64,000 nt of DNA from Bifidobacterium mizhiense (lineage in GTDB: Bacteria; Actinomycetota; Actinomycetes; Actinomycetales; Bifidobacteriaceae). The stretch lies in assembly GCF_020884755.1 (NCBI RefSeq), contig NZ_BPWE01000001.1, positions 372,001-436,000 of the forward strand, given 5' to 3'. The position numbers and the translations under genes were made by a program. Below the pieces are notes generated by a model that worked only from the letters and a program-made list of their open reading frames with translations, was not told the origin of the DNA and ran no database searches. Shown piece after piece: positions 40,287 through 45,926 of this stretch. Every line of letters starts with the position of its first letter. Within the stretch, counting starts at the first letter, position 1.

Positions 40287-40442
40287 GGTTACTCCTAGAT
40301 CCAAGGGCCCCGGGTCGACCGCCCCTGTGGCGGACGTGAACCGGCAACCGCGTAATAGTTTAGCGCAACCCGGGGAGAATACGACCCCCTTGCGCCACAC
40401 GCCGAATCGACCAACCGGTGTGGCGAGCCGCGAGCCCTCTAG

Positions 40443-42708: not shown

Positions 42709-43485
42709 ATGAGAGCATCAAAGCCTGTATCATCTTCTCTACAGCTTTTCGTCCCGCTCGTGGATTTTCTGGGTAAAATCCTCGGGCCCAAAACGGAAGT
42801 GGTGCTTCAGAATGTCAAGGATTTCTCGCATTCGGTGGTTGCCATCGCCAACGGCAATTTGAGCGGACGCACTATAGGCAGCCCCGCCACCGACCTGGTC
42901 ATGCACATCTGGCAGAACCACGAATACGATCAGCACAACTATCTGACCCATTACACGAGCTACACCATCCAGGGACACCCTATGGTCTCCTCTACTCTTT
43001 TCGTGCGGAATTCCAGAGGACGGGTGATTGGCTTTCTCTGCATCAATTTTGACAATTCCGCCTTCCGACAGGCCAGCCAAGAGCTCAGACGGGCAAGCGC
43101 TTATCTGGACGCTCTAGGACTGGCCGATCCTATTGCGGAGCTGAAAGACGATGGGGCCGTACCAGAAAAATCAGATACCGAGAACGGGATCGATCAATCG
43201 ACACGTGAAGTGCTCTCAGTCAACACAGACGAAGTAGTTACGCATAATATCGCCGAATTTGCTGCGCAGCTCGGTATTCCTCCGGCAAGGATGAACCGGC
43301 AGGAGCGCCTGCAACTGATCACACGCCTGGAGGGCTCGGGGGTCTTCCTGATCAAGGGCTCAGTGGACACGGTTGCCCGGACTCTCGGGATCTCCTCCCC
43401 CAGCGTCTACCGCTACTTGCATACGATACGCAGTGCTGCTGCAGGCCCTGATCAGAGCACATCGGCTCGCCCTACTCAGCTTTGA
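42709..43485 (+). CDS. YheO/DauR-type transcriptional regulator (PAS-like plus HTH)
   Basis: A 258-residue DNA-binding protein. The N-terminal half matches the YheO-like PAS domain (LGKILGPKTEVVLQNVKDF, SVVAIANGNLSGRTIGSPAT, GRVIGFLCINFDNS). The C-terminal half has a helix-turn-helix of the DauR type (GVFLIKGSVDTVARTLGISSPSVYRYL). The ATG at 42709 is preferred over a GTG at 42691 because GGGGTG lies a few bases upstream. It is divergent from the MalY-type lyase gene, which suggests that it senses a sulfur amino acid or related ligand; this is inference. Confidence 0.8.
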   Translation: MRASKPVSSSLQLFVPLVDFLGKILGPKTEVVLQNVKDFSHSVVAIANGNLSGRTIGSPATDLVMHIWQNHEYDQHNYLTHYTSYTIQGHPMVSSTLFVRNSRGRVIGFLCINFDNSAFRQASQELRRASAYLDALGLADPIAELKDDGAVPEKSDTENGIDQSTREVLSVNTDEVVTHNIAEFAAQLGIPPARMNRQERLQLITRLEGSGVFLIKGSVDTVARTLGISSPSVYRYLHTIRSAAAGPDQSTSARPTQL

Positions 43486-43791
43486 CACACCCCCTCCAAG
43501 GTGTATGATTAAGAACAGATATACGGGGGACGTATACACGATGGACCTACAGGGGCTGAACTATTTTCAGTTCCAGAGGAGATGTACATGCGTATAGTTT
43601 CCCGGCATATGCCGACGGCTCCTACTCGAGCACGTCCCGTATTCTTTTCCCTGATAAATTCCCATACTTAGCGGTTCTACGGAAACGCTTCCGGATTATT
43701 GTGTTATGCGCAGATCTTATGGCTGTCTACGTATGCACGCTTGGGGCACCGAGAAGTGGATATACACCGAGAGTGCTCTATGATCCGACAT

Positions 43792-43947
43792 AAAAAACGC
43801 GCCTAGCTCTTTTCCCCCGGCTTACATGTGAAGCCATACATATTTGCATCGGTGAATCATGGATGCTAGAGCTAGGCGGCGAGAGGACGGCCCCGACAAT
43901 AGCCGGGGCTAGTCCTTCTACTAAGACTATCAAGAAAGTTCGGGGGA
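43792..43947 (-). ncRNA. Structured RNA candidate with a predicted pseudoknot and terminal U tract
   Basis: Read on the minus strand, the element has three main helices. P1 pairs TCCCCCG (43941-43947) with CGGGGGA (43813-43819). P2 is a hairpin, AGGAC plus GCCCCG closing 43884-43916. P3 pairs 11 bases perfectly, CGCCTAGCTCT (43868-43878) with AGAGCTAGGCG (43800-43810). P1 and P3 interleave, so both forming would make a pseudoknot. Two small hairpins lie inside P3 (43846-43866 and 43819-43835). A TTTTTT run (43792-43797) ends it. I do not recognise the class; it is not tmRNA, SRP RNA or a known riboswitch by eye. Confidence 0.5.
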
Positions 43948-43951
43948 CAAA

Positions 43952-43980
43952 ACTATCGCTCTTCCACTGGCGGTCAGCAA
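43952..43980 (-). promoter_or_regulatory. Promoter of the structured RNA candidate
   Basis: A -35 TTGCTG (43975-43980) and a -10 GATAGT (43952-43957) are separated by exactly 17 bases on the minus strand. Transcription would begin near 43945-43948, just at the 5' arm of helix P1. The match to consensus is moderate. Confidence 0.4.
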
Positions 43981-44883
43981 AGATGCATATTAATGATGGC
44001 CAACTAATATACTTAGCTCATTGACAAATACTGCGTCTACTCTCTATTCGATGAGCGAGATCATCTCTTTGTCTAAACAACTTTGAGATTTTCAGTGATA
44101 CATCCGGCATATTTGAAGCATAAGTGAGGAATTAAAGCATAAACGAACATCGTTATCCTCACGGTCCTTATTCTCAAGACACGCGAGAAAACAGGATTGT
44201 TCAATTCACTAAGAACCAATCAATTGCCTATGGTGCCGCACGTTCATTTACGAGTTCACTCAATGACTGTGTATTAGGACGATAGTGCAGGCATAAATTA
44301 TCTATCTATGCAGAGATTCCAAAACAGCAAGAAGAACATCTTTTAAACCACTAAAACAAGTCGCATAACTCCCTCGAAAACTGAAACGCATGCAAAGTCG
44401 ACGCCGCTTTACAAAACGCCAGCAAGCACAACAGCCTGCTCCGTGAGCTGCATTTTAAATGTATGCAACAGCCATGGCGAAAACGCGATCATGTTACTCA
44501 GACGACATTGTAGGTAATATAAAGAACCGCGAATACTTGTCATAGTTGGATAGAAAATGCATACGTCTTTAATCGAAATGATTCGAAGGACTCTGACATG
44601 GCCTTCTGTGTGGTTGGCGTTTATCTGCTCTGTAAATCTTTGTCAAAGCTAGTTACTTCTTCGACGATCTATATATGGGTACAACCAAAGTACATTTCCA
44701 CAAGACCAAATTCAGCATTTGCAATCAAGCAATAATATCAAGAAGCCGAGTCAGCAAGTGATTTATGCACGCAAAGACAAATGTCGTGAAAAGTACCTGA
44801 GCGTGCAAGTCTTTCAGCGCTTTACACTAATAGTGTGCTGCTCGTTCGGTCATCGATGATTGTACCAAGGAGCGATCATAGAT

Positions 44884-45591
44884 ATGAATAAACAAACTAG
44901 TGAGCTCTTCCCTGCTGATACTAAGGAAAGTACAAGCGTATTGACTCCAGTTAAAAGTACAGCATCAACAGATGCTGCCACTCCTCCAGTTCCGCCTCCC
45001 GACAGCGGCAACGCTAAACCTACCGGGCACCACACCCACAAAAGCAAATCTGGCAAATCTATATGGAAGACAGCTTGCATAGTTTTGCTCGCCTTCATCA
45101 TCGGATTAAGCTTCAGCTCATGTCACGGCTCTGATCCCAAAGCTTCTCAAGACTACAAAGACCTCCAGTCGGATTACTCAAAGTCACAAAGCAATCTGCA
45201 CAAGGCTCGTAGGGAATTGCTTGACGCGCAAAGACAAGTCAAAAAAGTCCAAGACAAAGCCGATAAGTGGGATAAGGAGCAGGCCGATAAAAAAGAGGCC
45301 GAGCAAAAAGCCGAACAAGACAAGGCGAACCAAGAGAAAGCTGCAGCAGACAAAGCTGCACAAGAGAAAGCAGCCGCAGATCAAGCCGCACAAATACAAG
45401 CTCAACAGCAACAATTCCAAGCCCAACAGCAAGCCCAACAGCAGCAGATGCAGCTACAACCTCGCTCACAAAGCACTGTACACCGCGGAGCATTTTGTTC
45501 AGGAGCAGGGTCCACTGGAGCATCTGACCAAAATGGCACCACTCTAACCTGCAGAACAGCCAAAGATGGTCGCCTGCGATGGATGAACTAA
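44884..45591 (+). CDS. Membrane-anchored coiled-coil protein with a Cys-containing C-terminal module
   Basis: I do not recognise this gene as a named family. The 235 residues have a Ser/Thr/Pro/Lys-rich N-terminal part, one membrane span (about residues 55-75, TACIVLLAFIIGLSFSS), a charged and Ala/Gln/Lys-rich coiled coil (about 85-190, with repeated KAAADKAAQEKAAADQAA), and a C-terminal module GAFCSGAGSTGAS plus TLTCRTAKDGRLRW, a short two-Cys pattern that recurs at the end of assorted actinobacterial surface proteins. The ATG at 44884 has AAGGAG 11 bases upstream. Composition is AT-rich, unlike the flanking genes. Topology is probably N-in with the coiled coil outside. Confidence 0.7.
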   Translation: MNKQTSELFPADTKESTSVLTPVKSTASTDAATPPVPPPDSGNAKPTGHHTHKSKSGKSIWKTACIVLLAFIIGLSFSSCHGSDPKASQDYKDLQSDYSKSQSNLHKARRELLDAQRQVKKVQDKADKWDKEQADKKEAEQKAEQDKANQEKAAADKAAQEKAAADQAAQIQAQQQQFQAQQQAQQQQMQLQPRSQSTVHRGAFCSGAGSTGASDQNGTTLTCRTAKDGRLRWMN

Positions 45592-45888
45592 CAGGGAGGA
45601 AAAGCACTTGAATCCAAAATGAGAAGACCCGACATAGAAAGTTCAATTAATACATGAGCAGGTATAGCTTCAAATGCTAAAAAACAGGCTCTCACCCCAG
45701 TCCATGAGAAGAAACGTCAAGCTGTAATATAAACCCTTAAACGAAAAGCTCCACCTGATGAGTATCTAATTTCTAAATTACTTTCAGATGAATAAAGTCG
45801 AGAAGACTCTTTTGGAACCGTGACAAGCCAATGATTTTCTCGTGAAACTTAAAAGACACTCGTTCTATCATTTATCTTGGTGCAATGT
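45592..45888. other. AT-rich intergenic stretch with a possible eroded reading frame
   Basis: No intact gene. In the same frame as the preceding coiled-coil gene, codons after its stop read like protein but are broken by in-frame TGA and TAA codons: MRRPDIESSIN, AKKQALTPVHEKKRQAVI, TLKRKAPPDEYLISKLLSDE. This may be a decayed remnant or chance. I see no promoter or repeat. Confidence 0.25.
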
Positions 45889-45922
45889 AAAACCCCCGCA
45901 GGCTCTGTGCCTGTAGGGGTTT
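45889..45922 (-). terminator. Terminator after the CAT-anticodon tRNA gene
   Basis: On the minus strand AAACCCC, then CAGGC, ACAGA and GCCTG, and GGGGTTTT form a hairpin with two internal mismatches and a short U run. It begins 4 bases after the CCA end of the tRNA. Confidence 0.7.
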
Positions 45923-45926
45923 CGCT

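Follow-up and report, generated by a model that had tools for sequence, protein, structure and literature searches.

6S RNA is a long hairpin that is closed by its 5′ and 3′ ends and carries a central bubble. A screen for sRNAs of Bifidobacterium animalis reportedly exists (PMC4338058), and few stand-alone RNAs of bifidobacteria were found in the available text of the literature searched. The accessible parts of a transcriptome study of B. breve name RNase P, tmRNA, 4.5S RNA and a riboswitch (PMC5746004), and Ms1 RNA is described, in the available sections of the relevant report, as not found in Bifidobacterium (PMC9130861). According to the available text on the CoRP RNA of Corynebacterium, this tRNA-flanked, RNA polymerase-bound transcript of 516 nt has close homologues only in Corynebacterium; an unknown abundant RNA was expected on the RNA polymerase of Bifidobacterium bifidum, and one type of RNA per species was proposed (PMC11077062).

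We analysed a stretch of 64,000 nucleotides of Bifidobacterium mizhiense DNA (the window), where the comparison of 27 genus genomes indicated a putative RNA gene on the plus strand (Table 1). The element is very probably a free-standing, intergenic non-coding RNA gene of bifidobacteria of the B. asteroides group. It appears to be absent from earlier descriptions and would be a candidate regulator acting as RNA, not protein; no prior description of it was found in the available text of the open-licence papers searched, PMC2864571 and PMC5746004 included.

Table 1. Predicted features of the RNA gene and its flank in the window
Feature	Position	Strand	Basis or remark
Sigma-70 type promoter, TTGACA-16-TATGAT	43482..43509	+	Consensus matches 11/12
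Predicted ncRNA, ~405 nt	~43516..43922	+	Both ends placed from promoter and terminator; 21-homologue alignment; fold of 43515-43930
Hairpin H1, UAUACG-GGGGA-CGUAUA, GGGG loop	43520..43536	+	Conserved near 5′ end
5′-half hairpin (GGGGCUGAACUAUUUUCAGUUCC)	43552..43574	+	RNAalifold, nine close homologues; two pairs double-changed
Central domain closed by CCGGAUUAU / AUGAUCCG	43691..43787	+	RNAalifold, nine close homologues; several double changes
3′ domain: 13-bp stem P3 closing internal loop and inner stem	43798..43881	+	Covariation
UUCCCCC of conserved UUCCCCCGGCU, P3 internal loop	43812..43818	+	Possible H1-loop partner or target seed
P2, GC-rich hairpin with U-rich tail; likely intrinsic terminator	43884..43922	+	Tail weak in window species
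P1 5′ arm, judged outside the RNA	43940..43947	-	Covariation absent

The accepted matches of the gene were confined to the genus. In blastn searches the stretch was recovered from 16 of the 27 genus genomes and from 16 of 189 family genomes, all of them within the genus. The covariance model R1 extended this to 21 of 27 genus genomes and found the identical 21 among the 189 family genomes (E up to 1); in a search of 296 class genomes with E up to 0.1, only the own genome matched. Weak homologues elsewhere may be missed, since the large searches used stricter filters. Model R3 matched the same 21 genus genomes at E below 1e-29, with one strong match per genome. Of the remaining six genus genomes, five were without an R3 match up to E 5 and the best match of G006 had E 0.67; searching the 6 kb that precede prfA in these six gave no match either. 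In other genera, prfA was matched in 57 genomes; for 18 of these the stretch of about 5.5-6 kb upstream of the gene was searched with the same model, and nothing was found. Plasmids and phages were likewise devoid of matches. A pattern search returned 15 stretches, 13 of which came from Bifidobacterium or Bombiscardovia (B. asteroides, B. polysaccharolyticum, B. apousia, B. indicum, B. mellis, B. choladohabitans, B. xylocopae, Bombiscardovia coagulans and unnamed species); model R3 did not match the two non-bifidobacterial stretches (L074, L080) even with E allowed up to 10. The species carrying the RNA are mostly bee-associated.

Outside the genus, R3 gave weak matches in 12 of 162 family genomes (E 5.9e-6 to 0.78; 33 matching genomes including the 21 of the genus). 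Inspection covered G154, G027, G163, G069 and G134, none of which was accepted; the others lay in G028, G030, G099, G119, G136, G162 and G178. The matches in G154 and G027 adjoined genes with Pfam OrfB_IS605 and Cas12f1-like TNB domains and were taken as transposon ends. P3 was mostly missing or mispaired in the best of the outside matches (G163, E 5.9e-6) and skipped in G069, and the G134 match paired partially and lacked UUCCCCC. A second R3 match within the genus, in G012 (L120, E 2.5e-5), fitted poorly in P3. We also noted near-alike, hairpin-rich ends with UAUCCCCCGGCUAAAGCC at L118 1982-2084 and L121 1446-1565 (minus strand), beside IS605-type OrfB genes of two other Bifidobacteriaceae genera; their weak match to the RNA model was taken as chance. 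Rfam models found only the tRNA and the L31 leader in the window. Against 43500-44400, Rfam 15 (E up to 10) produced four matches, all below gathering scores, and on seven homologous loci (E up to 0.5) the only matches over the RNA were BjrC68 (L053, L056) and ssnA (L054), again below gathering scores. The first-pass annotation had recognised no known family at this place, and a structured RNA gene without an Rfam counterpart is supported.

The strand and extent of the gene were derived from the promoter, the terminator and the alignment. A consensus promoter scan of 43300-44300 gave two calls on the plus strand, versus 1.4 in shuffled sequences, and a promoter was present at the matching plus-strand place in all 21 homologues, where it scored 9-11 of 12. 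The length of the predicted RNA in relatives was approximately 400-480 nt. Alignment similarity to relatives ended at 43953-43987 in five of the six loci compared, breaking at 43953 in L030, L031 and L036 and at 43986-43987 in L033 and L035. In the five divergent homologues (L053-L057) conservation extended far past P3, towards the plus-strand upstream side. Counts of G-U versus A-C pairs (4 versus 4 in P3, 8 versus 7 in P4 and 13 versus 6 in P2) did not settle the strand. The longest plus-strand frame across the RNA varied between 25 and 109 aa depending on the genome. Frames of 29-35 aa were common to close relatives; none was seen to be shared in place between close relatives and divergent genomes, and we therefore do not think that the RNA codes for a protein. 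The 3′ part had previously been described as gene-free DNA; this holds in that the stretch contains no long gene; the two overlapping frames measure 51 and 53 aa. The GC content was 0.41-0.49 at the locus versus 0.53-0.64 on the regulator side, and 0.45-0.49 on the other side up to about 46000.

Folding of the plus-strand sequence 43515-43930 (416 nt) gave −146.1 kcal/mol (z −3.90), an energy reached by none of 100 shuffled sequences. The full-length consensus of the five divergent homologues had −138.8 kcal/mol and 130 pairs, 31 of them with a double change that kept the pairing, and that of nine close homologues (RNAalifold) had −139.2 and showed hairpins with covariation both in the 5′ half and in the central domain; several pairs of the central domain were broken in the close homologues besides the double changes. 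An eight-row alignment of mixed subgroups produced a poor consensus fold (−48.5), which we attributed to misalignment. The 3′ domain and the terminal hairpin were evaluated in alignment A3, which contained 15 of the 21 homologues after exclusion of six near-duplicates. The P3 arms (43798-43810 with 43868-43881) were paired in 97.9% of the cells, with changes on both sides in 5 of 13 pairs, and six pairs of the P2 hairpin (43884-43916) were changed on both sides. For the 26-pair structure as a whole, the observed pairing, the double-change counts and the covariation score were each reached by 0 of 500 shuffles, and slid versions of the structure dropped to 27-42% pairing; further pair types showed no excess over shuffles (129/500). 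P2 was followed on the plus strand by UUUUUC or UUUUCUU in G001, G002, G013, G021 and G026 of the divergent group. The terminal hairpin was not called by a terminator scan of the window, and we consider P2 the likely plus-strand intrinsic terminator. Directly behind it, the stretch 43923-43953 (AAGACTATCAAGAA) was partly conserved in the 16 homologues of group A and not in the divergent five. This stretch may be an antisense promoter or a longer 3′ end.

A hairpin with a GGGG loop was found near the 5′ end of all 21 homologues, and UUCCCCCGGCU was found within the P3 internal loop of all 21. The two elements are complementary, and the chances that the H1 loop pairs with the UUCCCCC of the P3 loop appear evenly balanced. 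Both are invariant, so the alignment lends the pairing no support and it is suggested by complementarity alone. H1 was absent from the minimum free energy structure of the window RNA, in which 43517-43526 pair with 43637-43645 and 43527-43528 with 43546-43547. A second TTCCCCC, in addition to the copy in the P3 loop, was noticed in the 5′ half of the L050 RNA, at about nucleotide 97 of the aligned sequence. Most of L050-L057 also carried an extra small hairpin before H1 (GAGA-loop-UCUC, some loops of the GNRA type), which was missing from the subgroup of the window.

We propose, with a probability of roughly 40% for the statement as a whole, that the locus produces a structured plus-strand ncRNA with a docked loop and RNA polymerase as its partner. 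The comparison shows a conserved promoter sequence of vegetative type, a long fold of several domains with covarying helices, an unchanging motif in the internal loop of the P3 stem and a terminal hairpin, which likely acts as an intrinsic terminator. The RNA would be compacted by docking of the H1 loop, GGGG, on UUCCCCC in the internal loop of P3. In the least certain step, the RNA would work through a protein that it binds, RNA polymerase being the most plausible one, and would tune transcription globally in the manner of 6S, Ms1 and CoRP. Its size, restricted distribution and isolation make it a reasonable candidate for a polymerase-bound RNA. The identity of RNA polymerase as the partner, argued by analogy, is tentative and on its own rather improbable; the link to the polymerase is a guess from size, distribution and the lack of a 6S match. 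Equally tentative is the assignment as the RNA-polymerase-associated RNA of a bifidobacterial lineage, which would add a class to 6S, Ms1 and CoRP and be folded through the long-range GGGG-loop/UUCCCCC contact. The coordinates, the 21 homologues and the covariance model make the polymerase idea testable in bifidobacterial strains that are harmless.

The main rival to the polymerase-bound reading is a trans-acting antisense sRNA, in which UUCCCCCGGCU would bind G-rich Shine-Dalgarno regions of target mRNAs and stay masked by the GGGG loop of H1 until release. This is possible, though on balance unlikely. UUCCCCCGGCU stayed invariant in 21 of 21 homologues while much of the RNA changed, as would suit a seed, and C-rich seeds that bind Shine-Dalgarno sequences occur in sRNAs of Staphylococcus aureus. 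Against it, a structure of about 405 nt exceeds what a seed needs. The own genome contained 40 exact GCCGGGGGA sites, including the RNA's own antisense, and at 7 of the 30 sites read, a crude scan without shuffled control found a putative start codon 2-13 nt downstream that opened a frame of 60 aa or more.

An RNP RNA of another kind, such as a scaffold or a membrane- or ribosome-associated RNA unlinked to RNA polymerase, is also unlikely. The length, the multi-domain fold and the restriction to one lineage would fit any such RNA, and the point that speaks against it comes from the neighbourhood: among the neighbouring protein genes followed, only prmC-prfA-rpmE travelled with the RNA throughout. 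The RNA adjoined these genes in all loci examined, 10 of the 16 of group A and the five divergent ones (Pfam PrmC_N, PCRF/RF-1 and L31). An L31-Actinobacteria ribosomal protein leader (Rfam RF03158, 42.3 bits) lay upstream of rpmE at 40306-40351 on the minus strand. By Pfam, the ten neighbours in the window were an aminotransferase, a YheO-like regulator, SBP_bac_5, ABC_cobalt, a short-chain dehydrogenase, PrmC, RF-1, L31, ABC_tran and one protein without a match. The aminotransferase, which matched Aminotran_1_2, is presumably MalY. The gene for the family-5 solute-binding protein (SBP), where present nearby, lay on the other side of the RNA and convergent with it; it was missing in L029, L030, L032 and L116. 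A tRNA-Met gene followed convergently, 2.0 kb downstream of the RNA in the window, and in seven loci of about 3.1 kb each a tRNA was found downstream of the RNA in L052, L053, L054 and L056, with none seen on the other side.

The neighbouring genes also bear on the reading of the element as a 3′-UTR of the YheO-like regulator mRNA, or as a bidirectional terminator between convergent genes, which we regard as improbable. It would be consistent with the promoter overlapping the stop codon of the regulator gene in the window and with the convergence of RNA and SBP gene. However, the RNA had its own promoter in all 21 homologues, and it persisted where no regulator gene lay beside it, in L027 and L028 and in the five divergent loci, which lacked the MalY gene at this place as well.

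The first-pass annotation had read the region on the minus strand, as a transcript of about 156 nt in which helices P1 and P3 form a pseudoknot, with a promoter at its 5′ end and a U tract, and had taken it for a stable sRNA or a regulatory RNA of the neighbouring island. In favour of this reading, P2 and P3 fold on the minus strand too, a TTTTTT run follows P3 in the window species, and TTCTTGATAGTCTTA is conserved upstream of P2 on the minus strand in most of group A. P1 was tested in alignment A1 (16 rows, 15 distinct). Its arms are complementary in the window; in the alignment, 74.3% of the cells paired, as in shuffled alignments, the pair of column 18 formed in 2 of 15 and the others in 9-15 of 15, and no pair was double-changed over the 15 distinct homologues. 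P1 is therefore not considered part of the RNA, and the H-type pseudoknot with P3 fails along with it. The consensus scan called no minus-strand promoter in 43300-44300, and near the proposed 5′ end the scores in 21 loci ranged from 0 to 9 at positions varying by subgroup, so that no promoter was shared. The A/T run at 43792-43797 that would serve as U tract is present in the window and lost in L012, L013, L015, L016 and L053-L057. Conservation ran about 280 nt past the proposed 3′ end. Based on the P1 test and the promoter scans, the minus-strand reading with P1 was rejected as highly improbable, and the plus strand is most likely. The claim of a structured RNA survived as an RNA gene with P2 and P3 as real helices, the former present in the sequence and the latter also kept by covariation; the strand, the length, the pseudoknot and the link to the island did not. 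The annotated part amounts to the 3′ third of an RNA of about 405 nt that begins about 276 nt outside it. The stability of the fold was confirmed for the 126-nt core of P2 and P3 (z −4.42, 0 of 200 shuffles as low), whereas the 189-nt minus-strand stretch reached only z −2.16 (4 of 200). The RNA is placed outside the island (from about 43987) because it adjoins prmC-prfA-rpmE and only one of six relatives (L034) shares the island, up to 44900, where the query ended. In the window the island is a gene-poor stretch between the RNA gene and the convergent tRNA-Met (43987-45926), and it contains an ORF of 243 aa (44860-45591, plus strand), Q/K-rich and without Pfam match. That its first 0.9 kb is common to one of six relatives suggests an insertion-prone site. 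Finally, a DNA element (a protein-binding inverted repeat, a cruciform or an attachment site) is hardly credible: the long, well-conserved inverted repeat of P3 and the closeness of a tRNA gene in some genomes speak for it, and an RNA-like full-length fold with promoter and terminal hairpin and a single strong match per genome speak against it.

Among known systems, RNase P RNA (RF00010) and tmRNA (RF00023) are similarly long and structured, and both are encoded elsewhere in this genome. 6S RNA (RF00013) shares the stand-alone nature and may be a functional analogue; the predicted folds differ in that they end in a separate 3′ hairpin behind an independent P3 domain. With an E cut-off of 1, the 6S model had no covariance match in the own genome; in the control it matched 6 of 14 genomes and not C. 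glutamicum, so RF00013 may be weak in actinobacteria. Ms1 of mycobacteria and Streptomyces is likewise, in the available text, a stand-alone regulatory RNA of actinobacteria, and differs in its length of about 300 nt and its typical position beside a HAD hydrolase gene (PMC9130861, PMC11077062). By Pfam, no HAD-IB hydrolase gene was among the ten window neighbours. RNA polymerase binding has been shown for CoRP and is conjectural for the bifidobacterial RNA, and CoRP has tRNA-Gln/Glu on both sides, whereas the tRNA lies on one side here. In arrangement, the bifidobacterial RNA resembles CoRP in being long, intergenic, genus-restricted and neighboured by a tRNA, and in coming from an actinobacterium in which neither 6S nor Ms1 RNA is known.
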